Source of the DNA: Coriobacteriia bacterium
GTDB taxonomy: Bacteria; Actinomycetota; Coriobacteriia; Anaerosomatales; PHET01
NCBI GenBank assembly: GCA_009779675.1
Contig: WRDS01000009.1
Span: forward strand, 1-35,202
DNA length: 35,202 nt
Reading direction: 5' to 3'
Below, piece by piece: positions 510 to 23,310 of this stretch; position 1 is the stretch's first letter; the number at the start of each line of letters is the position of its first letter. A program made the translations under genes and the position numbers. The notes beneath the pieces are model-generated. The model was given only the letters and a program-made list of their open reading frames with translations. It did no database searches and was not told where the DNA came from.

Positions 510-1565
510 TCAGCCCAGCACCGCTTTCGTAATAGCATCGGCTACGCAGTGGACGGGGAGCACATCCATCGCCGCTCCAATATCAACGGCGGCCTTGGGC
601 ATGCCGTAGACAACAGACGTAGCCTCATCCTGGGCAATGGTATAGGCTCCCTCATTGCGCATGAGTTTAAGCCCCTCAGCGCCATCCGCCCCCATTCCCG
701 TAAGAAGCACCCCTACGGTATTCGCTCCATGCATCAAGGCAACCGAGTCAAAAAGCGTGTCGATGTTAGGCACATAGACCTGGCCCGGGGATGACGCGAC
801 AACGCGCATAGCCGAGCCCTCGAACCTCAGGTTGGCCCCGGTGGGAGCAAGATAGGCGACCCCCGGTTCTGGGACCACCCCGTTCTCGGCAACAGTCACC
901 TTGATCGCACAACCCGAGTCAAGCCAACTCGCAAGGCCGGAGACGAACCCGTCGGCGATATGCTGCGCGACCACTACGGGGACAGGAAGGTCTGCCGAGA
1001 GCCGACCAAGGACCTCGAGCAGCGCCGACGGCCCGCCCGTCGAAGAGCCAATAGCCACCAGCGAACGCTTCGCCATGGAACCGACCTTGGCCAAACGGGC
1101 AGGCCGGACCGTCCGTTTGCCCCGGACATGGGTGACGACCTTCACGTTTGCGAGGACCTTCACCTTTTGGATGATCGCCTCGCCGATCTCGCCGAGCGTT
1201 GTCCAATCCCTTGCTTCCGGCTTCTTCACTACGTCAAGCGCCCCTAAATCGAGCGCCTCAAAAGCACTGCCCATCCCTTGTCCGTAAACAGATGTCGAGA
1301 CCACAAGGATCGGCGTGGGGGCAAAAGCCATGATCTGCTCGGTGGCATCAAGACCGTCAAGCACCGGCATATGGATGTCCATCGTCACGATATCGGGGCG
1401 CAAGGCGGCTACCCTCTCAACCGCCTCGGCACCGTTTTTTGCTTGACCCACTACCTCTATATCAGGATCGCTTTGCAGTATCTGCACAAGTAGCTCGCGT
1501 GCTACAAACGAATCGTCAACCACTACCGCCCTGATTTTTTTGCGTATCCTGCCCACTGCACTCAT
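510..1565 (-). CDS. cheB: Chemotaxis protein-glutamate methylesterase CheB (REC + methylesterase)
   Basis: REC with PDIVTMDIHMP; catalytic-region motifs GSSTGGP, AQHI and GMGADGAEG. Start chosen at the internal Met (MSAVGRIRKK); the ORF track starts at 1595. Confidence 0.95.
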   Translation of the reverse strand: MSAVGRIRKKIRAVVVDDSFVARELLVQILQSDPDIEVVGQAKNGAEAVERVAALRPDIVTMDIHMPVLDGLDATEQIMAFAPTPILVVSTSVYGQGMGSAFEALDLGALDVVKKPEARDWTTLGEIGEAIIQKVKVLANVKVVTHVRGKRTVRPARLAKVGSMAKRSLVAIGSSTGGPSALLEVLGRLSADLPVPVVVAQHIADGFVSGLASWLDSGCAIKVTVAENGVVPEPGVAYLAPTGANLRFEGSAMRVVASSPGQVYVPNIDTLFDSVALMHGANTVGVLLTGMGADGAEGLKLMRNEGAYTIAQDEATSVVYGMPKAAVDIGAAMDVLPVHCVADAITKAVLG

Positions 1566-1606
1566 AGGCCCGCCCTGCCACCGCGCATCCGCCACATCCC
1601 TGCTCT

Positions 1607-3946
1607 CTACCTTGTCAGATGCTCAACAGTGTCAAGCAACGTCCCCTGATTGAACACAGACTTGGTGATATACGCATCTGCCCCCGCTTCGATGCCGAGC
1701 GCTTTTTCCTCATCGCGCTCCAATGATGTGACGATCACGACCGGCAGATGGGCGAACTCGGGGTCGCTTTTTATGGCTTTTGCCAACTCAAAGCCGGTCA
1801 TGTTGGGCATCTGCACGTCACTCACTATGATGTCGACTTTCAGCCCTTCCCGTAATTTTGTGAGCCCTGCCAAGGCATCGTTTGCAGTCTCAACATAGTA
1901 CCCTGCTGCCTCAAAGATCGACCGCTCGAGCTCCCGGGTCGTGAACGAGTCCTCACATATGAGCACCCGTCGCTGCCGAGGGCCCGCCGACTGCCCACGG
2001 GTCGCAGACCGGGACCGACCCGTTCGGTTATGGGCCCCTACGATCATGTCGGGCACGTGCAGGATCGGCACGATCTCGCCTTCCTCGGCCACGGTCACCC
2101 CAGCGATATTAGACACCTTGCCAAAATGCTTGCCGAGGGGCTTGATCACGATCTGCTGCTCGCTCTCAAACTCATCGACGACAAAACCGAACCGATAGCC
2201 CGTGTGCCCGATCGAGACAATGGGGACCTTGCCTTCGGGGTGCCCGTGCTCTCTGATGCCGAGAAGATCGGCAAGGTGCACCAATGGAACCGCCCTGCGT
2301 CCCCGCCGGATGACCTCTCGCCCATCGAAGCGCTGGATCTCCGATGGATCCAGCAAGAGTGTCTCTTCGACAGATGCCGTCGGCAGCGCAAAATACCGGT
2401 TCCCTACTCTAAGCACAAAGGCGCGGATGATCGCGAGCGTGAGCGGAACGGTAAGTCTAAACTGCGTTCCCTCGCCCAGTTTTGAGTACACATCGAGCGA
2501 GCCTTTTAGCTTCTCGACGATGAGTTCCCGCACAACATCCATTCCAACACCGCGACCGGACAGCTCGGTGATGATCGTCGATGTCGAAAAGCCCGCCTCA
2601 AAGATCAGGTACATCGCCTCGCGGTCGGAGAGCGCCTCTGCATTGGACTCGGCGATATACCCGCGGCGAACCGCGGCGGCTTTGATGGCCTCTGGGTCGA
2701 TGCCAGCACCGTCATCCGACACCTCGATAACAATCCTGTCGCCCTCCTGGTGCATGGCGACACGCACCTTGCCCTTTGCGGGCTTGCCCCGTTTTATCCG
2801 AGTCAGAGGGTCTTCTATCCCATGGCCTACGGCATTACGCATGAGGTGTACAAGCGGGTCATTGATCTGCTCCAAGACCTTTTTGTCAACCTCGGTCTCC
2901 CCTCCCTCGATCTCAAACTCAATCTCCTTGCCAACATCTTTGGCAAGGTTGCGCATCGTGCGAGGATACGCCTGAAAGACCGTATTGGCGGGCAGCATAC
3001 GCATGCGCATACTCTGCTGTTGCAGATCGGAAATGACCGCGGAAGCACGCGAGGTGTCCTCGTTCTGGGTTTTCACAAACTGGGCAATGCCGCACTCGTG
3101 GTCGACAAGAAGGCGGTCAAACTGCTCGACATCCTCGGTGCCGACACTCCACCCTTGCAGATCGACCTTGCTCAAGGCAGCCCTGAGACAACTCCATTCC
3201 CTATGGATCTCCATAGCCTGCAGATGCAAAGACCGCAGGTGACTGACTTGTTTTGCCCCTTTGACCTGACCGATGACGACTTCGCCGACCATGTTTAAGA
3301 GTGAGTCCAGCTCATTTGTGCGCACACGGACCGTTGACTGCGCTTTGGCAGAAGACCCAGAGGAGGCCGCCGACCCGCTCGAACCGCCTGTGGGAGCCAC
3401 ATCAGAAATGGACGCGGCATCCGCCTCGGCAGGAGGGCCAGGATGCCCATCGCCGACAGATGTGCGGCCATCCTCATCGGCATCACTGGCGATACCAGCA
3501 GGATCGCTGCAGGAAAAACCCGCTTCCTCTAAAGCGCTATCCTCGCTATCCTCGCGCACCAGGCAAGAAGCGAGCCGCTTTTGTAGCTTATCCAGGTCAA
3601 GTTCTCCGGCAACGTTCGTGCCTCCCTTCGCCGTGAGGAACATGACGGCATCGAACGCCTCAAAAAAGCAGTCGCTCACCGCAGAGGAGTAGACGAGCTT
3701 CCCATCGCGGATCTGCACCATGATGTCCTCAAGATGATGCGCAAGGTCGGATATCTCGATAAGCCCGACCATCCTTGCCGAGCCTTTGAGCGTGTGCGCA
3801 TCGCGCAGCATGCCCTCAATGAGTTTTTTTTCATCCGGGACAGCCTCAAGCCGGATCGCACTCTCGTTGAGGCGCTGGAGCAGATCCTGGGCTTCCTCTT
3901 GGAACTTTTCAATAAATGCAGTCCGGTCGAAGTCGACCATAGCCAC
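1607..3946 (-). CDS. cheA: Hybrid histidine kinase CheA with Hpt, dimerisation, HATPase, CheW-like and C-terminal receiver domains
   Basis: Hpt DAHTLKGSARMVGL; HATPase HLMRNAVGHGIED, VSDDGAGID, GRGVGMDVV; C-terminal REC VLICEDSFTTRELERSIF...DIIVSDVQMPNMTG. Confidence 0.95.
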   Translation of the reverse strand: MAMVDFDRTAFIEKFQEEAQDLLQRLNESAIRLEAVPDEKKLIEGMLRDAHTLKGSARMVGLIEISDLAHHLEDIMVQIRDGKLVYSSAVSDCFFEAFDAVMFLTAKGGTNVAGELDLDKLQKRLASCLVREDSEDSALEEAGFSCSDPAGIASDADEDGRTSVGDGHPGPPAEADAASISDVAPTGGSSGSAASSGSSAKAQSTVRVRTNELDSLLNMVGEVVIGQVKGAKQVSHLRSLHLQAMEIHREWSCLRAALSKVDLQGWSVGTEDVEQFDRLLVDHECGIAQFVKTQNEDTSRASAVISDLQQQSMRMRMLPANTVFQAYPRTMRNLAKDVGKEIEFEIEGGETEVDKKVLEQINDPLVHLMRNAVGHGIEDPLTRIKRGKPAKGKVRVAMHQEGDRIVIEVSDDGAGIDPEAIKAAAVRRGYIAESNAEALSDREAMYLIFEAGFSTSTIITELSGRGVGMDVVRELIVEKLKGSLDVYSKLGEGTQFRLTVPLTLAIIRAFVLRVGNRYFALPTASVEETLLLDPSEIQRFDGREVIRRGRRAVPLVHLADLLGIREHGHPEGKVPIVSIGHTGYRFGFVVDEFESEQQIVIKPLGKHFGKVSNIAGVTVAEEGEIVPILHVPDMIVGAHNRTGRSRSATRGQSAGPRQRRVLICEDSFTTRELERSIFEAAGYYVETANDALAGLTKLREGLKVDIIVSDVQMPNMTGFELAKAIKSDPEFAHLPVVIVTSLERDEEKALGIEAGADAYITKSVFNQGTLLDTVEHLTR

Positions 3947-5211: not shown

Positions 5212-5772
5212 CTAATGTGTGATGCCATCGCTACTGACGGGTCTGAGTACCATATCCACATCCAAAACACTCATCAGACGGCCCTCAACCTCAAGGATCG
5301 CCGAGACACACTCCGTGGCAGCCGTCCCCGACGTGTTTATTATCGGCTCAAAGTCGCCCTCGCTTACATCGATGATGTCTCCGATCTCATCAACCACAAA
5401 AGCGGTTGCAACGTCCCCTTTAGCAAGGACGATCGCAACGTCCATGATGCCCTCGTCCAAAGGCCTTTCCGAGCACCTGGACCCCAGCATCTCCGCTGCC
5501 CCGCACACCGAAAGGATCTCGCCACGTAAATTGGTCACTCCGAGCACATACTCGGGCACACACGGCAGCGAAACGACCGTGAAGCCATGGATGATCTCCC
5601 GAACAGGCGACACCTTCACGGCATACCATTCATTTCCGGCACAGAAAGACAGCACCGCCTCAAGCAGAGGCTTGTCCTGTTGTTCTTTGACGTGGGCAAG
5701 TGACTCGGCGCGCTGGCGCAGCACCTCATCGTCAGATGGGGTCGTGGGAAGCGCACGCGTCGGCTCACCCAT
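5212..5772 (-). CDS. cheW: CheW-like adaptor (first copy)
   Basis: [39 protein letters not shown]...[12 protein letters not shown]. Start taken at MGEPTRALP (5772), giving ATGA overlap with the upstream cheW stop. Confidence 0.93.
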
Positions 5773-6287
5773 CACGCCACCACGCTCAAACACCTGAACA
5801 GCTGCTCTGCCGAAAGCATATAGACCAGGTTCTTATCGAGACGCGCAACCGATTCCATCAGTGCGCTCAACGGATAGGAGTGTGGCACCTCGCGCACCTG
5901 TGCCGCAGAGAGGTCGAATACGTCCTCGACCGCATCGACCACGAGTGCGATGACCTCACCACAAAACGTCGCAAACACCATCGGGGTGTCAAGGGTCTTC
6001 TCGGCAGAAGGAACGCCGAGCAAGACCGCAAGATCGACCGCTGGCACAATCTCCCCGCGCAGATCAACAATGCCTATGACACCTGTTGCCGCCCCTGTGG
6101 CAGCAGACATACCAACAATCGGTTGGACCTCAAGCACATGCTCGAGGCGCAGCCCGAAATGTTGGTCGGCGACCGAGAATACGACGTACTGCACATTGGC
6201 ACCCCTGGCAGCCTGCTCCTCCGAGCCGAGGGCAGCAGACTTCTCTTTGCCCAGATGCACATTGAGGTCATTTGCCCGACCGCTCAC
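5772..6287 (-). CDS. cheW: CheW-like adaptor (second copy)
   Basis: YVVFSVADQHFGLRLEHVLEVQPIVGM...GVIGIVDLRGEIVPAVDLAVLLG...LVVDAVEDVFDL. Confidence 0.93.
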   Translation of the reverse strand: MSGRANDLNVHLGKEKSAALGSEEQAARGANVQYVVFSVADQHFGLRLEHVLEVQPIVGMSAATGAATGVIGIVDLRGEIVPAVDLAVLLGVPSAEKTLDTPMVFATFCGEVIALVVDAVEDVFDLSAAQVREVPHSYPLSALMESVARLDKNLVYMLSAEQLFRCLSVVA

Positions 6288-8359
6288 TTCGCAAACCTCA
6301 AGACCCGATTCAGCTCATTAGGGCTGATGATGCCTTTTTCGACTTTCGACAGGCCTGAGGAGACCATTGAGCGCATGCCGGCCTTGGTCGCCGCAATGCG
6401 GATGTTGTTAACACTCTCATCGCCCACGATGACCGTGCGGACAGGCTCGGTGAACGGCAGCACCTCAAAGATCCCGGTCGCACCAGAGTATCCGGTCCCC
6501 GAACACGCAGGGCACCCTTTGCCCTCGTGCGGCACAATGCCCATGCGGGCACCAGGGATCTTTGACACGATTGAGCTCTGGGTCGGTTCTGCGCATGTGG
6601 TGCAGTTCGTCCGGAGAATGCGCTGACCCACCCCAAGCGTAAGCGAGTTCGCAAGCGAGACCGGCTCAACGCCCATATCAAGGAGCCTTCTTACGCCAGA
6701 AACAATATCCCCGCTCACGAAGGTCACAATCACAAGCTTGCCCATCCCCGCCGCTTTGATAGCAAGGTTGGCCTCATCGACAGCCTGGATGGAGTCAAGC
6801 GCGAGCACATCGGTGTCCTGCTCGAATCCGGCGGAAAAATACCCTGCAGCCGGTATCGGAGTGCCAGGGCTGACTTGGACTTGGGCTGCTGCGGGAATCT
6901 CATAGTCTATTGAGCGCTCCACCGAGTACACGGTTTTGCCCACCTGCGCCGCATGCTGCAGGAGCGCGTAGTACGTCGCCGAGCAGCCACCGCCCACCGG
7001 AGCAGCGATCAACAGCAGCCCGCGCCCACGTTCGACCATCGCATGAAGCGCTTTTTGCTCAGCATCCGACATTCCAAGGGCAGCAAGGTCTTTTGGACGC
7101 GGCGGATTCGTCACTGCCGAGATGACAAGCCGTTGCCCGGCGATTGTTGGAACCGCTGAGATCGAGAACACGACGTCCTTACCAGCGATCTCTGTACGCA
7201 CCCGGCCAAGCGCCGGACGGCTGTCCGGGATGTCGCCCAACCGTGCAAAGTTTATAAAACCCTTGATGAGCTGTTTTTCCATAGACAGCGGGGCGCTTGC
7301 TATCTTCTCAAGCCTGCCCCGGATCCTGAACACCAAGAAGAAGTCCGACTTGTAGGGCAGTAGGTGTATCTTGCTCGCACCGCGGCGCACTGCAGCCTCA
7401 AGGATGTCTGTAACCAAAATAGCGACCGCACGCTCATCGGCAACCGCTAAGACATCAAGGTCTATCGATGGGCTATCCTCGCCGATCTCACTTCCCATGA
7501 CCTGCTCAACGGTCAACGCCGCAGAAACATCTGCGATGTCGCTGTCAGCTGCCACACTGGGACCCGAGTCGAGCTCGCCGACCGCAAACCCCTCTGCACT
7601 TGAAGAAGCGTGCTCGACTCCAAACGCTGCTGCCTCTACCTCATCAGGCGCTGAAAGCGGTTCGGGGGTCCACTGTGTATCTTCGGAAATATCAGGATCG
7701 GGGACCTCTTCAGATACGGAGGACTCAGAAGAAGCAACGTCGGGGGCCACTCCCGCCTGGGACACCAGGCCGTCCATCGTAAACTCATTTGCCCCGCTCG
7801 TGTCGGCAGGTGCTGCCGAAGCCGCCTCTAGCGCGCTGTCCGCCGCCCCTGACCCACTCGCCCCCGGCCTGCTGTCCGCCCCTGACCCGCTGTCCGCCGC
7901 CCCTGGTCTGCTGTAATACTCCAGCAGCGCCTCTTCCACCGCCGACCTCTCGCCGATGACAGCGTTAAGCTCAATCCCGTTCGCGGCACCGATCTCTTCA
8001 AAAGCAAACACCGAGGCAAGGTCGCCGAGGGCCACGGTAAGCACCCCGTCGATATCAAACAACGGCAATAACCGATAGGCGTTGGCAACATCTGCCGGTA
8101 TAAGCCGCAGCGCATCCTCGTCGGGCGCGTAACTCTTCAAGTCGATTTGCGGGTAACCAAGATCCCGCTCGAGTACAAGTGCGAGCTGCGCTTCGGTGAT
8201 GACACCTTCTGCAAGGAGCCGTCTCCCCATCTCGCCATCGGTAGCCGAATCGACACGGATAGCCTCAACCTGCCCAGGCAGGATGTACTTCGAACTGACA
8301 AGCGAGTTTATTACCTGATCTGCTGTGGATTTTGCTGTGATATCTGGCATCGTGATCAC
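6284..8359 (-). CDS. GspE/PilB-family protein with MshEN N-terminal domain and apparently degenerate ATPase motifs
   Basis: N-terminus GRRLLAEGVITEAQLALVLERDLGYPQIDL...LRLIPADVANAYRLLPLF; C-terminal CTTC...CPACSGTGYSGATGIFEVLPFTEPVR as in PilB/GspE; P-loop position reads APVGGGCSATYYALLQ. Confidence 0.85.
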   Translation of the reverse strand: MITMPDITAKSTADQVINSLVSSKYILPGQVEAIRVDSATDGEMGRRLLAEGVITEAQLALVLERDLGYPQIDLKSYAPDEDALRLIPADVANAYRLLPLFDIDGVLTVALGDLASVFAFEEIGAANGIELNAVIGERSAVEEALLEYYSRPGAADSGSGADSRPGASGSGAADSALEAASAAPADTSGANEFTMDGLVSQAGVAPDVASSESSVSEEVPDPDISEDTQWTPEPLSAPDEVEAAAFGVEHASSSAEGFAVGELDSGPSVAADSDIADVSAALTVEQVMGSEIGEDSPSIDLDVLAVADERAVAILVTDILEAAVRRGASKIHLLPYKSDFFLVFRIRGRLEKIASAPLSMEKQLIKGFINFARLGDIPDSRPALGRVRTEIAGKDVVFSISAVPTIAGQRLVISAVTNPPRPKDLAALGMSDAEQKALHAMVERGRGLLLIAAPVGGGCSATYYALLQHAAQVGKTVYSVERSIDYEIPAAAQVQVSPGTPIPAAGYFSAGFEQDTDVLALDSIQAVDEANLAIKAAGMGKLVIVTFVSGDIVSGVRRLLDMGVEPVSLANSLTLGVGQRILRTNCTTCAEPTQSSIVSKIPGARMGIVPHEGKGCPACSGTGYSGATGIFEVLPFTEPVRTVIVGDESVNNIRIAATKAGMRSMVSSGLSKVEKGIISPNELNRVLRFAK

Positions 8360-8373
8360 TGCCGCCTTTTACT

Positions 8374-8754
8374 TTAAGCCTGCACTTTGGCAAGTTCTTC
8401 TGCAACAACTGCGAGGAGACGCTCTGGCTCGACTGGTTTGGTCAGGTATTGGTCGGCACCGGTCCGGATACCCGTGGCCATAGACTGCTCTTCTGCCTTT
8501 GCCGTCAACATAATGATCGGGATCTTCTGGTAGTTCTTGTCAAATTTAAGCAGTCGACATACACGATAACCATCGAGTTTGGGCAACATGACATCAAGCA
8601 AGATCAGGTCAGGCGACTCACTTTTTGCAGCATCGAGCGCTTCAGCTCCATCCGAGGCCTCTATGACCTCGTACCCGGCGGAAATCAGAAGCGACTTAAT
8701 CATCTCCCGGATGGTCAGACTGTCATCGACTAGCAGTATCCGTGTTGTAGACAT
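8374..8754 (-). CDS. Single-domain response regulator (CheY/PilH-like)
   Basis: ILLVDDSLTIREMIKSLLISAGYEV...LILLDVMLPKLDGYRVCRLLK...IIMLTAKAEEQ...YLTKPVEPERLL. Confidence 0.95.
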   Translation of the reverse strand: MSTTRILLVDDSLTIREMIKSLLISAGYEVIEASDGAEALDAAKSESPDLILLDVMLPKLDGYRVCRLLKFDKNYQKIPIIMLTAKAEEQSMATGIRTGADQYLTKPVEPERLLAVVAEELAKVQA

Positions 8755-8811: not shown

Positions 8812-10323
8812 TCATCCGGCATCAGCAATGGCTCTTCGAGACTCTTCGATTCCACGCTCACTCGCTTCGGCGATCATTTCAGGCGAAAAATCGCCGAGGA
8901 ACACCGACCACGTCCCCTGCCTTTCCTTCCCCAAAGTCCTAAGGGTCCGCTCGTACTCGCAGATCGCTTCTTCTGCGTCCCCGTTTTGCCGAGCAATCCC
9001 CGCAAGTGCGAAATGCGCAAGGGAGAAGTCCGGATCGCTATAAAGCGTGCGGCGGAACTCGCGCGCTGCCGCCCCCAACTCCCCCTGCCCGCGCTTAAGC
9101 ATCCCAAGCAGGTAACGCGCCTGGGCACAAAGCGGCTGCTCCTCAAGGATGGCATCGGTTTCTGCAATGGCTCCCGCCACATCGCCGACATCCGCCCGCT
9201 TGTACGCTGAGACCAAAGCCAATTGTATTTCATCCAAGGCCGCCGCGTCTTGTGTTACCGGCTCTGTTTTGCGCACCTCATCTACATCTTCATGAGCCCT
9301 TGCAGCCTCGGCAGCCCCTGCAACCCCGCGAGGAAAGGCCCTGACAGGGATCCCTTTCCCTTCGAAGCCATTAGAGGGCCCGGATTCCGCTCCACCTTTT
9401 GCCTGAGGCATTAAAAACGCAGTCTGCCTGGCTTGAGAAGGCCGGCTGGGCTTCCTGTAGAAGAACACGCCGTTCACCTCCGCCGTCTCAAAACAGTCTT
9501 TCGCCAGTGGAAGCATCTCAGAGTGCCCGAGGAACAGGTACCCGCCCGGATTAAGCGCATCGTACAGGCACGCGATAGTCGATTTTGCAATGGTCGGCTC
9601 GAAATAGATCATCACATTGCGGCAAAAGATCACGTCCCAGCCCATGGGCTGCAGGTGCGTCTGTTGCTGCTGCGCCAGATTGTGGTACCTGAAATTGCAC
9701 ACGTCTCGCACTTGCTTGACCGGGCGCCAGTAATCGCCATTGGGCTCAAACCAGCGGGCGACAACATCACTTTGCAGATCCCTGATCGCCCGCTTTGAAT
9801 ACCTGGCCACACGGGCGAAATCGAGCACGACCGACGATATATCCGTGCCGAGCACCTCGATCGGGACCCCCTGCAACCCTACGAGCGAATCAAACAGCGT
9901 CATAGCGATCGTATACGGCTCTTCCCCCGTCGAACATCCGGCAGACCAGACCCTGAACGGAGAGGTGTTATCCTGACGCTCGCGCAGGATACGCGGTGCG
10001 GCATGATAACGCAGCGCATCAAACTGCCCTGGAAAACGATAGAAGCTCGTCTCGTTTATCGTGAGGAGGTTCATCAGCTCCTTGAACTCGTCCTCTTCAC
10101 TGCCGAGCGCCTCAAAGTACTCGGCAAAGGTGCTCAGCCCAAGCGAGACCGCACGCGAATGCAGTGCTGTTTGCAAAAAGTCTGTCTTGGATGCCTCAAA
10201 AAACACCCCTGATTGCTGTTGGATCCAGTCGCGGAAAAGCTCGAATTCTTTTGCGGCCAGTATTTGCTGCGTCACGATCATTTTGGGCGCAACTTGCCTA
10301 AATGCCCGCAGAAGTACTGGCAA
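8812..10323 (-). CDS. cheR: CheR-type MCP methyltransferase with C-terminal TPR-like extension
   Basis: TINETSFYRFPGQFDALR, FRVWSAGCSTGEEPYTIAM, WDVIFCRNVMIYF, GGYLFLGHSE; TPR-like ARYLLGMLKRGQGELGAAAREFRRTLYSDPDFSLAHFALAGIARQNGDAEEAICEYERTL. The true start may be the internal Met at about 10281. Confidence 0.93.
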   Translation of the reverse strand: MPVLLRAFRQVAPKMIVTQQILAAKEFELFRDWIQQQSGVFFEASKTDFLQTALHSRAVSLGLSTFAEYFEALGSEEDEFKELMNLLTINETSFYRFPGQFDALRYHAAPRILRERQDNTSPFRVWSAGCSTGEEPYTIAMTLFDSLVGLQGVPIEVLGTDISSVVLDFARVARYSKRAIRDLQSDVVARWFEPNGDYWRPVKQVRDVCNFRYHNLAQQQQTHLQPMGWDVIFCRNVMIYFEPTIAKSTIACLYDALNPGGYLFLGHSEMLPLAKDCFETAEVNGVFFYRKPSRPSQARQTAFLMPQAKGGAESGPSNGFEGKGIPVRAFPRGVAGAAEAARAHEDVDEVRKTEPVTQDAAALDEIQLALVSAYKRADVGDVAGAIAETDAILEEQPLCAQARYLLGMLKRGQGELGAAAREFRRTLYSDPDFSLAHFALAGIARQNGDAEEAICEYERTLRTLGKERQGTWSVFLGDFSPEMIAEASERGIEESRRAIADAG

Positions 10324-11080
10324 CCGCTACCTCGTTGCGCTCAACCAGCCCAGATGCCTGCAGCTCAAGCAGAAGGCGTGCGATCTCAAGGTCACCATAA
10401 CCGGTGAGGTTGACGAGTTCGCGCAAGCTCCGACCACCATGCAGATGACATAAAAGACCCCACTCGCGGGCGGTCAGGTGAATATCCCCCGCATTCCCTC
10501 CGGCAGTCGATGCCATGAAAAAATTGGTTCCGTCGTCAGGGACATTCTTTGAGAGGCGGTTCCACTCCTCTAGCCTTGTGGCGAGCTTTGCCGCAATATC
10601 GCCAACGGCTATTGCAACACCGAGGTCGGCCGCCTGATGAGAGTCATTCGGCTCGAAACGAAGGGTCCCGCTCTCCCATCTGAGCAGATCGAACAGCACA
10701 TCCTCGACGGACTGCGCTACAAACTGTTCGAGTTTGTGCCGAGAGACATATCCCTCTTCGATAAGCACTTGGGCCAGGCTGCGTTTTGCCTTATCGCCCT
10801 GCTGTATCTTCACCAGGCCTTTGGCCTGCCGATACTCGGTCTCTGTGATCAGGCCGCTTGCATACATGCGCTCTCCAGGATCGCCAGCAGAGGCCATGCC
10901 CACCTCGGCATGGTAGATCATGCCTTTGCTAAAGCACACCTGGCCACGCGTAGCGACCCTTTCCGCCTCGGTTTTCTCAAGATATAAAATGCCGTCTTTC
11001 TTGCCGCTCTGCAGAAGGCGGAACATGTCATTAAGCGAAAAATCTGAGAGGCTGCCCTCAAGAGCCACTTCATCCTCCAA
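10298..11080 (-). CDS. DUF4388 (PATAN-like) domain protein
   Basis: LEGSLSDFSLNDMFRLLQSGKKDGILYLE...GQVCFSKGMIYHAEVG is characteristic of DUF4388; overlaps the cheR ORF. Confidence 0.8.
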   Translation of the reverse strand: MEDEVALEGSLSDFSLNDMFRLLQSGKKDGILYLEKTEAERVATRGQVCFSKGMIYHAEVGMASAGDPGERMYASGLITETEYRQAKGLVKIQQGDKAKRSLAQVLIEEGYVSRHKLEQFVAQSVEDVLFDLLRWESGTLRFEPNDSHQAADLGVAIAVGDIAAKLATRLEEWNRLSKNVPDDGTNFFMASTAGGNAGDIHLTAREWGLLCHLHGGRSLRELVNLTGYGDLEIARLLLELQASGLVERNEVAVASTSAGI

Positions 11081-11210: not shown

Positions 11211-12071
11211 TCAGAGTGACCCGCGCCGGACACTCTCAATAGCCGAGCCAAAAAGAGCAAGCTCCTCGGCGGTGGTTATCGCACCATCGTCAGCGATAAC
11301 CGCAGACTCAAAATCAGTGAGATCCGCGAGGCTCTCCGCCTGATAACCTGCTTGCTGGACATCGCTGACAGCAAGATTGCGGATCTCAACGCCGCCCATG
11401 GGGACAAGCCCAGCCGAGCAAGCCGCTGTGAATGCCTTGCGCAAGGACACCCGTTGGCCGCCCGCGATATGCACCGCCGAGAAACCCGCTGCCGCAAGCG
11501 CCGAATAAACCACCCTGATGTCGCCGTCAGAGTGGAATACGGCTGGTCGCCCCTTCCCCCACACTTTTGCAATCGCGCAGTAGCAGGGCATGAGTGTCTC
11601 AAGGACAAAATCGGGCGCAAGAAGCCAACCTGCGGATCCAGCAAGGTCATCGCCGCAGAGCAGCACGTCGGCTTCGGCTAAATGCCCGCGGCGCACATCG
11701 AAAAGACAGCTGCGCATAGCGTCACGGAGCGCAACCGCTAGGTTCTGCGGCGAGCGTGCTGACTCGGCAATCGTGGGAAACCACCCGCGTTCAAGGGCAA
11801 CACGCGACACGACCCCTTCCACAATCCACCCTGCGGCAATACCCGCAGATTTAAGCGCCTTTACCGCATCGGTACCCCACGGCTCAGATGCTGGAACAAA
11901 TGCGAGATCAACGTCGAATGCCTGGGCGACAAGGGCGAGCGTCTCCGGGCCGCTTTCGGCGCTCGGGCCACCGGCGAGCGCATGCGCTGCCTCAAGGGGG
12001 ACCCACGTCATCGCAGTCGCACGACCAACCGCATCGCCTAAAAGCAAACTGACCAGTTCACTTTTGCCCAT
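11211..12071 (-). CDS. Uroporphyrinogen decarboxylase (UroD)-like protein
   Basis: LLCGDDLAGSAGWLLAPDFVLETLMPCYCAIAKVWGKGRPAVFHSDGDI resembles UroD/MtaA-type folds. Start placed at MGKSELVSLLLGD (12071), not the ORF-track 12230. Confidence 0.65.
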   Translation of the reverse strand: MGKSELVSLLLGDAVGRATAMTWVPLEAAHALAGGPSAESGPETLALVAQAFDVDLAFVPASEPWGTDAVKALKSAGIAAGWIVEGVVSRVALERGWFPTIAESARSPQNLAVALRDAMRSCLFDVRRGHLAEADVLLCGDDLAGSAGWLLAPDFVLETLMPCYCAIAKVWGKGRPAVFHSDGDIRVVYSALAAAGFSAVHIAGGQRVSLRKAFTAACSAGLVPMGGVEIRNLAVSDVQQAGYQAESLADLTDFESAVIADDGAITTAEELALFGSAIESVRRGSL

Positions 12072-12426
12072 AAGCCACCCACACCTTCTCGGCTTCCTCG
12101 CACCATGCGGTTCTCGGGTCGGAGATGTCGCGACCAAACCGATCAGCAATGAAGTGAAAATACCCGATACCGGGAATGCCGCTATCCGCACGGACCACAA
12201 GCGAAGCGATGATAACACCCTTTTCTGCATGGACTTGCTCGTCGACTTCCGTGAGCAGGTCCATGATCAACCTTGAGCGAGCTGGCACCGTACCGCCAAA
12301 CACATGCACTGCAACATCTTTATAGGCAACCGTCTCACGCCGTCGGGCGGCATCGACAAGCATTTCATAAAGACGCGCACGTGCGCACTCCCAGTCTTTT
12401 GCGGTTCGACGGGCGCGTGCCGCCAT
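12058..12426 (-). CDS. Conserved-looking small protein of unknown function, overlapping the UroD-like gene start
   Basis: Start MAARARRTAKDWECARARLYEMLVDAARRRETVAYKDVAVHVFGG at 12426; the ORF-track start (12492) lies inside the tmRNA gene. Stop overlaps the next start by about 14 bp. Confidence 0.65.
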   Translation of the reverse strand: MAARARRTAKDWECARARLYEMLVDAARRRETVAYKDVAVHVFGGTVPARSRLIMDLLTEVDEQVHAEKGVIIASLVVRADSGIPGIGYFHFIADRFGRDISDPRTAWCEEAEKVWVAYGQK

Positions 12427-12458: not shown

Positions 12459-12812
12459 TGGTGGAGGTGGCGAGACTCGAACTCGCGTCCATGGTACGCC
12501 CCTAGGAAGCATCTCCAGGCTCAGTCATCAGATAGATCTCGAGCCAGCTGCCGCCTGATGACTCGCTGCAACTGCCTCATAGCGGTCCCATCTTTCACAA
12601 CTGCATGCCGCCCGCGTCAGTTGTGGCAGTCTCCTAAAATGACACCTAGCCGATGGCGGAGACATCCACCGGATCGGCGTCGCTGCTCTATTCTAGGCAG
12701 CGAGAGCATAGTTGTTGTCGACGCTTGAGCGTCTGCGCCCCTGTTTTACGAGGTAAGGCGACCTCGACCTGCTTCTTCCCTCAAACGTATCATGTCGAAA
12801 CCGGTCACCCCC
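12459..12812 (-). ncRNA. ssrA: Transfer-messenger RNA (tmRNA)
   Basis: Minus strand starts GGGGGTGACCGGTTTCGACATGATACG and ends GCGAGTTCGAGTCTCGCCACCTCCACCA; the 5' GGGGGUG pairs with 3' CACCUCC; tag ORF ends ...GAC AAC AAC TAT GCT CTC GCT GCC TAG (DNNYALAA*). Lies next to smpB. Confidence 0.95.
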
Positions 12813-13009: not shown

Positions 13010-13486
13010 CTACCCGCCTTTCTGCCGCTCCCGCAAGGCCCGTTCCATATCGCGCTTCTGGTCCCTCTCGGCAATCGAATCGCGCTTGTCATGCAGTTTC
13101 TTGCCACGCGCCAGCGCTAACTCTACTTTTGCCTTGTTGGAAGGCGAGAAATACATCGAGAGCGGGATGAGCGTGAACCCGCGCTCCTTGGTCTTGCCGA
13201 TGAGATAGCGGATCTCCTTTTTGTGCAGCAAAAGCCGGCGCTTTCGGTCGGGCTCGACATTCGCACGATTGCCATGGCTGTAAGGTGCGATATGCACCCC
13301 ATGCATCCAAACCTCTCCACCGGCGATGGTGGCAAACGACTCCCGCAAAGACGCTCGGTTCTCGCGCAACGATTTTACCTCGGTGCCCGTGAGTTCGATA
13401 CCGGCCTCAAAGACCTCCTCGATAAAATAATCGTGCCGCGCCTTTTTGTTCGACGCAATCAGCCGCTCGTTTTTCGCCTTCGCCAT
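13010..13486 (-). CDS. smpB: SsrA-binding protein SmpB
   Basis: NKKARHDYFIEEVFEAGIELTGTEVKSLRENRASLRESFATI...RANVEPDRKRRLLLHKKEI. Confidence 0.97.
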   Translation of the reverse strand: MAKAKNERLIASNKKARHDYFIEEVFEAGIELTGTEVKSLRENRASLRESFATIAGGEVWMHGVHIAPYSHGNRANVEPDRKRRLLLHKKEIRYLIGKTKERGFTLIPLSMYFSPSNKAKVELALARGKKLHDKRDSIAERDQKRDMERALRERQKGG

Positions 13487-21419: not shown

Positions 21420-22346
21420 TTATAAAAGCTCTTTTGCAGCTGCAGCGATGTCGTCTGCTGTCAACCCGAAGTACACCATGAGTTCGTCGGGGTTTCCTGA
21501 TGTCCCAAAGGTATCAGCCACTCCCACACGCCTTGTTGGGACCGGACACACCTCGGACAAGACCTCAGAGACGGCAGAACCCATGCCGCCGAGCACCGAG
21601 TGCTCTTCTGCAGTCACGACCCTTCCCGTCTTTGCTGCCGAGGCTGCAAGCGTTTCAACGTCGATAGGCTTTATGGTAGCGACATCTATGACTTCAGCAG
21701 AGATGCCCTCGTTCGCAAGTGCCTCGGCTGCCAAGAGCGCCTGGGCGACCTCGACACCACATGCGGCGATAGTCACATCCGATCCTTCGCGCAGCACATG
21801 GGCACGACCTACCTCCCATTCGTGCCCTTCGGAATAGATCTCAGGAAGCGCCGAGCGACCCAGTCGGATGTAGAACGGGCCTGGGGTAGAGGCTGCCGCC
21901 CGGATCGCCGCCTTGGCAGAGCGATAGTCGGCTGGGACAAGCACGCGCATCCCCGGCAGTACGCGCATGAGCGCGATGTCCTCGATCATCTGATGGCTGC
22001 CGCCGTCAGGCCCCACGGTGATACCGGCGTGCGTGGGCGTAAGCTTCACATCAAGGCCGGAGTAACACACAGTGTTGCGCACCTGGTCGTAAGTCCTGCC
22101 GGTCGCAAACACCGCAAATGAGCCCGTGAAGGCCACCTGCCCCCCAACCGCAAGGCCTGCTGCAACACCGATCATGTCCTGCTCGGCGATACCGACATTA
22201 AAAAACCGCTCCGGATAAGCATCGGCAAACTTGGCAGTCGTCGTTGACTTTGAGAGGTCGGCCTCGACAACAGCGATGTCCACTCCCCCTTCCACGAGCG
22301 TCACAAGGGTCTCGCCAAGAGCCTCGCGAGTGGCCTTTGCGGTCAT
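21420..22346 (-). CDS. Transketolase, C-terminal subunit
   Basis: VVEADLSKSTTTAKFADAYPERFFNVGIAEQDMIGVAAGLAVGGQVAFTGSFAVFATGRTYDQVRNTVCY. Confidence 0.93.
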   Translation of the reverse strand: MTAKATREALGETLVTLVEGGVDIAVVEADLSKSTTTAKFADAYPERFFNVGIAEQDMIGVAAGLAVGGQVAFTGSFAVFATGRTYDQVRNTVCYSGLDVKLTPTHAGITVGPDGGSHQMIEDIALMRVLPGMRVLVPADYRSAKAAIRAAASTPGPFYIRLGRSALPEIYSEGHEWEVGRAHVLREGSDVTIAACGVEVAQALLAAEALANEGISAEVIDVATIKPIDVETLAASAAKTGRVVTAEEHSVLGGMGSAVSEVLSEVCPVPTRRVGVADTFGTSGNPDELMVYFGLTADDIAAAAKELL

Positions 22347-23239
22347 TGGATCCCCTTCTCCTCGGCAATAGGGAGTTCGCGTAAAGCCTCTGCCACCTGG
22401 GCATCAGAAGGTGCCTTACCGTGCCAGCCGGCCTCGTTTTCCATGAATGAGACGCCCTTCCCCTTGACCGTGTGGGCAAGCACAGCAACCGGCCCTGCGG
22501 TGTGCGCACGTGCCCTGGCAAGCACAGCATACAGAGACTCGACATCATGGCCATCGACCTCGATGACCTCCCACCCGAACGCAGTGAACTTGTCTGCGAG
22601 CGAACCCAGGCTCATCACGTCGTTGCAAGCGCCATCGATCTGCAGGCCATTGTTGTCAACAATGGCAACAAGGTTACCAAGCCCCTGATGCGCGGCGAAC
22701 ATCGCCGCCTCCCACACCTGCCCCTCCTGTAGCTCACCATCGCCGAGCAGCACGAACACCGTGCGCGTATTGTACGCGGCAGGTCTGACATCTTGGGCAC
22801 GGGCGAGCCCCGCTGCGAGACCAGCTGCCACCGAGAGCCCCTGCCCAAGCGAGCCTGTGGAGACCTCGACCCCGGGCGTTTTCTTGCAGTCGGGGTGTCC
22901 CTGCAAGATCGAGCCGAGCTTGCGCAGCGTCTTTAGATGCGTGCGCTCGAAGTAGCCGGCCTCGGCAAGCGCCGCATAAAGCACCGGTGCCGCATGCCCC
23001 TTTGACAGGATGAAACGATCGCGCTCCGGCCACGACGGGTCATCGGGCTTGTGGCGCAGGATGCCGCCGAGGTACAGGGTAGCAACGATATCGACCGCCG
23101 AGAGCGAGCCACCAGGGTGCCCAGAGCCGGCAGCCCCGATCATCTCGACGATGTCGCGACGCATCCGCAGGGCCCCCGCACGCACGCGGGTAGCAACGGA
23201 TGCCTGCATCCGAGCGGTGTCTGACAGTCCTTCTGTCAT
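22343..23239 (-). CDS. Transketolase, N-terminal (TPP-binding) subunit
   Basis: GSGHPGGSLSAVDIVATLY, RDRFILSKGHAAPVLYAALAE, GSLGQGLSVAAGLA, GDGELQEGQVWEAAMFAAHQGLGNLVAIVDNNGLQIDG. Start at MTEGLSDTAR (23239). ATGA overlap with the C-terminal subunit. Confidence 0.94.
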   Translation of the reverse strand: MTEGLSDTARMQASVATRVRAGALRMRRDIVEMIGAAGSGHPGGSLSAVDIVATLYLGGILRHKPDDPSWPERDRFILSKGHAAPVLYAALAEAGYFERTHLKTLRKLGSILQGHPDCKKTPGVEVSTGSLGQGLSVAAGLAAGLARAQDVRPAAYNTRTVFVLLGDGELQEGQVWEAAMFAAHQGLGNLVAIVDNNGLQIDGACNDVMSLGSLADKFTAFGWEVIEVDGHDVESLYAVLARARAHTAGPVAVLAHTVKGKGVSFMENEAGWHGKAPSDAQVAEALRELPIAEEKGIQ

Positions 23240-23310
23240 AGTGTCACCCTCATCTTCACCCTCGTTTCCTTGAGCACTTCGCCTGACCATGCCTCATCAA
23301 TGTCCTGCCG

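Follow-up and report, generated by a model that had tools for sequence, protein, structure and literature searches.

The window (the whole stretch of DNA that was analysed, 35,202 nucleotides) carries on its minus strand a run of nine genes in the order DUF4388, CheR-TPR, CheY, PPB, CheW, CheW, MCP, CheA and CheB, with neighbours overlapping or lying no more than 57 bases apart (Table 1). PPB is the name used here for the fourth gene, which encodes a pseudo-PilB/GspE. A reading made from the letters of the DNA (the sequence-only reading) had described it as a frame open for 691 codons and overlapped by cheW. Both statements hold: the frame, at 6284-8359 on the minus strand, contains no internal stop, and the overlap with cheW measures 4 bases. 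The first codon is GTG; an ATG three codons later agrees better with the starts of relatives.

The Che enzymes of the operon have kept their signature residues, for example the phospho-acceptor box AHTLKG of CheA. PPB has a fixed place in an operon with intact CheA, CheW, CheY, CheR and CheB and an MCP, and the che locus contains no pilus gene other than PPB. The first gene encodes a DUF4388 protein, DUF4388 being taken here as the PATAN domain. The MCP has two putative transmembrane helices, read from the sequence, with hardly any loop between them, so that an extracellular sensor domain seems to be missing. It is encoded by the single MCP gene found in the genome (the assembly is 94% complete), whereas most relatives across the order have three to five MCP genes, and most have a second type of CheA. 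The other chemosensory system has therefore seemingly been lost from the window genome.

Some further features were seen around these genes. Inside the cheR frame, on the same strand, ARAGORN called a tRNA-Ser (tga; window 9690-9781, minus strand) that is probably a false positive. An ORF without a Pfam match lies directly upstream of the DUF4388 gene (window 11211-12230, minus strand) and recurs, with weak conservation (67-163 bits), as a neighbour in most relatives. Close to where the operon has its upstream end, smpB is closely followed downstream by a tmRNA gene (tag VDNNYALAA; the pair at window 12459-12812 and 13010-13486, both minus strand). Transketolase is divided over two adjacent ORFs at 21420-23290 of the window (minus strand).

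Table 1. Genes of the chemosensory operon and features of PPB, in window coordinates
Feature	Coordinates	Strand	Evidence or remark
CheB	510..1595	-	Domain searches (Pfam, NCBIfam)
CheA with C-terminal receiver domain; Hpt His box AHTLKG present	1607..3946	-	
MCP, only one found in genome	3971..5200	-	
CheW, first copy by coordinate	5212..5793	-	
CheW, second copy, 4-base overlap with PPB	5772..6287	-	
PPB, pseudo-PilB/GspE, 691 aa	6284..8359	-	T2SSE 3e-56, MshEN 3e-14; 47 orthologues aligned
PPB T2SSE (N2D + CTD) domain, residues 307-685	6305..7441	-	Pfam; fold match to EpsE, PilF, PilB
PPB second CxxC, tetracysteine zinc motif	6503..6514	-	Kept; C616, C619 invariant
PPB first CxxC, tetracysteine zinc motif	6593..6604	-	Kept; C586, C589 invariant
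PPB His-box position VTFVSGD	6707..6727	-	His lost; 0/48
PPB Walker B position DTDVLALDSIQAVDE	6773..6817	-	Glu to Ser; Glu 0/48 (G22 S16 P6 A3 T1)
PPB catalytic loop ('Asp box') SVERSIDYE	6899..6925	-	Catalytic Glu (E481) kept, 48/48
PPB Walker A position APVGGGCSATYY	6968..7003	-	Lys to Cys, Ser kept; Lys 0/48 (R27 A12 S5 G3 C1)
PPB variable linker, residues 155-280, probably disordered	7520..7897	-	pLDDT <50; length varies among relatives
PPB MshEN (T2SSE_N) domain, residues 67-154	7898..8161	-	Pfam match
PPB N-terminal four-helix part, residues 12-66	8162..8326	-	Degenerate c-di-GMP half-motifs; helices pLDDT >90
CheY-like single-domain response regulator	8374..8754	-	14 bases upstream of PPB
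CheR with C-terminal TPR	8812..10323	-	Pfam
DUF4388 protein	10298..11080	-	Pfam

Fold and active site of PPB

The T2SSE profile of Pfam matched residues 307-685 of PPB with 191 bits (3e-56, cut-off 24.9), and the MshEN profile PF05157 matched residues 67-154 with 53 bits (3e-14, cut-off 23.1), in agreement with the MshEN-like N-terminus of the sequence-only reading. The NCBIfam model of PilB (TIGR02538) gave 1.4e-82 and yet missed its equivalog cut-off, scoring 278 bits against 676. Judged by these profiles, homology to PilB is far above chance. An AlphaFold2 model had a mean pLDDT of 73, with values above 90 in the N-terminal and N2D parts, low values in the zinc region and in the linker of about 125 residues, for which disorder is predicted, and values below 50 at the P-loop residues 456-458, too low for the model to bear on nucleotide binding. 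The best Foldseek matches of this model in the PDB were EpsE (E 6e-22), PilF and PilB (1e-20), EpsE being the top single match; full-chain TM-scores were low (0.3-0.5) because domain placement differs and the linker is disordered. HMM search, alignment and fold comparison identify PPB as a bona fide protein of the PilB/GspE fold.

The active site was inspected in 48 sequences, namely the window PPB and 47 orthologues from 47 other genomes of the order. At the Walker A position APVGGGCSATYY, the Walker B position DTDVLALDSIQAVDE and the VTFVSGD that replaces the His box STLHTND, the departures from PilB described in the sequence-only reading turned out to be those of a whole family: the Walker A Lys, the Walker B Glu and the His of the His box are present in 0 of the 48 PPB sequences and in all 47 canonical PilBs of the phylum. 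The Thr of the P-loop had also been reported lost along with the Lys; it is in fact replaced, the hydroxyl residue after the Lys position being Ser in 47 of the 48 sequences and Thr in one. The window PPB itself has Cys at the Lys position. Two Arg residues of N2D, R175 and R212 in the numbering of L085, are lost and two, R177 and R218, are kept, and the N2D face is strongly changed (IHIEP to IHLLP, RxRxDG to LVYRVKG). In place of the lost motifs the family has new invariant ones, QDTDVxAID, SVE, LLPYKxDFF and AMVERGRG, and its Walker B Asp is a new invariant D522. The catalytic-loop Glu, whose role in catalysis is known (PMC9765406), is kept. So is the CxxC...CxxC zinc region, as had been claimed, with four Cys that are invariant in an alignment of 30 rows. 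Intact Walker motifs elsewhere in the protein, which the sequence-only reading had named as an argument against itself, are excluded by the collinear T2SSE match. The combination of fold and losses supports PPB as a PilB/GspE-fold protein with a dead active site, and we infer that it lacks ATPase activity.

Occurrence and conservation of PPB

When 60 related genomes were searched, one class of matches stood out at about 450-650 bits, against about 165 bits for canonical PilBs. PPB was found in 58 of the 69 genomes of the order Anaerosomatales (formerly OPB41) and in none of the 231 other Coriobacteriia genomes sampled; other phyla were covered by one scan with family-specific probes. The gene order DUF4388-CheR-CheY-PPB-CheW-CheW-MCP-CheA-CheB is the same in 47 other loci, up to the ends of their contigs. 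The homologues thus share the chemosensory neighbourhood as well as the losses (Lys and Walker B Glu are missing from 48 of 48), and none of these 48 sequences of the order is a same-locus relative with canonical motifs of the kind that was expected to betray recent decay.

Genome completeness is uneven, so that absence from a single genome is weak evidence. Of the 11 genomes of the order without PPB, ten also lack the operon-type CheA. In the eleventh, G012, the operon-type CheA and CheB lie at the very start of a contig, and PPB probably falls in an assembly gap. PilB-type matches persist in several genomes without PPB, for example as two canonical PilBs in G017. Since PPB is absent together with the operon CheA while PilBs persist, it tracks the chemosensory system and not pili.

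Codon comparisons show PPB to be under purifying selection: dN/dS of the core domain was 0.03, 0.04 and 0.11 in the three closest same-genus pairs, the other pairs being saturated. Intact frames, low dN/dS and retention across the order bear out the earlier view that the gene is not a pseudogene.

PPB as a proposed link between chemosensory array and type IV pilus

Type IV pili and chemosensory arrays communicate. The physical link between them is, to our knowledge, mostly obscure beyond a few models. The window genome has the genes of a pilus: contig C17 carries a canonical PilB beside PilC, prepilin peptidase, pilin-like genes and PilM, contig C25 carries a second canonical PilB beside a 750-aa DUF4388 protein (L086 2294-4546 and 4801-6504), and PilT-type ATPases are encoded on C44 and C26. 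The one on C44 (L087) is a 653-aa ORF with an N-terminal receiver-like region. The linkage of DUF4388 and PilB on C25 recurs in G017 (L201), there in the order PilB-DUF4388-PilB. The two cultured species of the order have been described as non-motile and as bearing pili-like appendages (PMC9686372).

PilB (TIGR02538; PDB 5TSG, 5TSH, 5ZFR) and PPB have in common the order MshEN-N2D-CTD, the tetracysteine zinc motif and the fold. PPB differs from PilB in lacking the Walker A Lys, the Walker B Glu, the His box and N2D Arg residues, in its long disordered linker and in belonging to a che operon instead of a pil operon. Similarly GspE/EpsE, the type II secretion ATPase (PDB 1P9W), is the top fold match but does not have the active-site losses of PPB, whose operon is devoid of type II secretion genes. 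A closer functional parallel comes from Myxococcus xanthus, in which PilB acts upstream of the Dif chemosensory pathway. Its K327A mutant, changed in the Walker A Lys, does not hydrolyse ATP and nevertheless signals strongly upstream of Dif, turning on EPS production without pili, and the nucleotide-free form of PilB has been proposed as the signalling state (PMC5544727). As in our reading of PPB, a PilB without the Walker A Lys signals to a chemosensory pathway; in M. xanthus, however, a single active PilB has both functions and the variant is a laboratory mutant, whereas PPB is a dedicated, naturally inactive paralogue in a che operon. In Synechocystis, PilB1 and PilC are binding partners of PATAN regulators that belong to chemotaxis-like systems (PMC12288463), and PixG and PixE bring a PATAN-type protein, CheY and a PilB-family protein together, as is the case here (PMC12288463, PMC7690835). 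There PilB1 is an active motor and PATAN is fused to CheY, while the PPB locus has separate genes and an inactive PilB. A non-exhaustive literature search found no published report of a pseudo-PilB or a PPB-like system.

On balance, and with moderate confidence, we favour the explanation that PPB is a PilB/GspE-type pseudo-ATPase which has become a fixed chemosensory part and ties the array to the type IV pilus. We infer such a coupling between the genome's only chemosensory system and the pilus from synteny, from the DUF4388 (PATAN) partner and from the Myxococcus precedent. PPB keeps the shape of PilB (N1D, N2D, CTD and zinc motif); locked out of the ATP cycle, as we suppose, it would act through binding. 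It could then serve as a nucleotide-independent platform joining the CheA/CheW/MCP array to the pilus base, contacting both. The array side might be reached through CheW, the overlapping neighbour, or through CheY and the DUF4388/PATAN protein. PPB would set or report pilus activity, with the signal running from array to pilus or in reverse. A role as an adaptor between array and pilus motor, close to the non-hydrolysing adaptor suggested in the sequence-only reading, is plausible. The arguments for this explanation are the fold, the order-wide catalytic losses, purifying selection, the fixed operon and the co-occurrence with CheA, together with the coexistence of canonical PilB, PilC, PilM and PilT-type genes and a single MCP without extracellular sensor. 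Against it, the kept catalytic-loop Glu and two of the four N2D Arg make residual nucleotide binding possible. In BfpD activity was still measurable with both active-site Glu mutated, the Lys being intact there (PMC9765406). The non-motility of the cultured species (PMC9686372) and a che locus in which PPB is the sole pilus gene also count against it.

That a genome with one MCP keeps, within a che operon, a motor fold without motor function suggests a motor protein turned into a signalling part. Signalling by PilB has so far been visible only in mutants of M. xanthus; PPB would separate it from the motor role and would offer a clean protein for binding tests.

It is possible, though rather doubtful, that PPB is instead an input device. 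It would mimic PilB in its nucleotide-free signalling form and inform CheA of the status of the pilus or of a cytoplasmic signal. The signal would then run in the same direction as from PilB to Dif in M. xanthus, where K327A signals without pili (PMC5544727), and the overlap with cheW as well as a sole MCP without an extracellular sensor domain would fit such a role. However, the CheY and the PATAN-type protein of the operon fit an output route, and in M. xanthus PilB works from outside any che operon and, in wild-type cells, is catalytically active. We think it unlikely that PPB is a poison or tuning subunit which, once released by the chemosensory system, lowers pilus extension by forming mixed hexamers with PilB or by competing for PilC or PilM. 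The kept PilB fold and zinc domain and the canonical PilBs of the same genome would allow this, but the altered N2D face argues against mixed assemblies with PilB.

It is quite improbable that PPB is an ATPase or nucleotide switch whose active site has been re-invented, with Arg or another residue doing the work of the P-loop Lys. Arg does stand at the Lys position in 27 of the 48 sequences, and the P-loop Ser, the Walker B Asp (D522) and the catalytic-loop Glu are kept. However, R, A, S, G and C all occur as the replacing residue, a variation that a functioning catalytic site would not tolerate. The window copy has Cys, and the His box and N2D Arg residues are gone as well.

PPB is very improbable as a c-di-GMP sensor of the array through MshEN, even with an MshEN match above the Pfam cut-off and, in the same genome, six GGDEF genes, of which five are strong and one is weaker. 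The c-di-GMP receptor motif of MshEN consists of two copies of RLGxx..G..LxxxLxxQ, in which both Gln contact the ligand and the Arg of the second copy also has a role (PMC5013675). In nearly all PPB sequences half-motif I is without Gly3, where Leu stands, and Gln24, and half-motif II is without Arg1 and Gln24; both Gln and one Arg of the tandem motif are thus replaced family-wide. The NCBIfam model of the motif scored 23.9 bits (cut-off 38). Degenerate half-motifs and a score below cut-off make c-di-GMP binding by PPB unlikely, although weak binding may occur. Of the c-di-GMP input proposed in the sequence-only reading the MshEN fold stands and the binding motif does not, and PPB as a simple MshEN/c-di-GMP sensor was rejected on this motif test. 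Finally, a gene in decay is hardly credible: the gene is broken in one draft genome (G114) and the window copy is the longest branch among the sampled PPBs (0.70), but the other frames are intact, dN/dS is low, the losses are family-wide, the gene is retained across the order and the new motifs QDTDV and LLPYK are invariant, so that recent decay was rejected.

Che-linked PilB relatives in other classes

Four relatives of PPB in a second actinobacterial class (L195, L196, L234 and L279) adjoin the same Che genes, although at L279, a short contig, these are only CheY, CheW and MCP. The first scan of the phylum scored three candidates per genome; G465 and G619 were found with a second profile. 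The four relatives have the operon type of PPB and belong to its clade. In all four the Walker A Lys and the Walker B Glu are present and the catalytic-loop Glu is gone, which is the opposite of the PPB pattern for these three residues; they have also lost the His box and N2D Arg175. In the tree PPB and the four relatives fall on one side of a branch with support of 100/100, which stayed at 99-100 after single long-branch members or PPB were omitted. From the tree alone the grouping may be due to long-branch attraction, but it is independently supported because the operon is shared.

In a fifth genome, from another class, a che operon contains a PilB that is canonical throughout (L197). It shares the CheR-CheY-PilB gene order with the PPB locus and has CheA, MCP, CheB, CheR and CheY alongside. 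Unlike PPB it has all catalytic motifs intact, so that che linkage with an active motor occurs too. This nearest canonical che-linked PilB lies outside the PPB clade and joins the che clade only when PPB is omitted from the tree. It was considered as a direct active ancestor of the che clade and rejected, since the tree groups it with canonical PilBs, near the junction and without support.

We see about even chances that a che-linked PilB lineage became a pseudo-ATPase at least twice, by losing different residues. If so, a signalling subunit with the shape of PilB but no ATP cycle would have been favoured by selection, and it would amount to a chemosensory component of a new kind. For comparison there are now two lineages whose active-site losses complement each other, and a canonical PilB linked to che genes. 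A separate observation concerns genome G301, in which a canonical PilB (L280 6825-8953) has a CheY-like gene directly upstream and lies outside any visible che operon.
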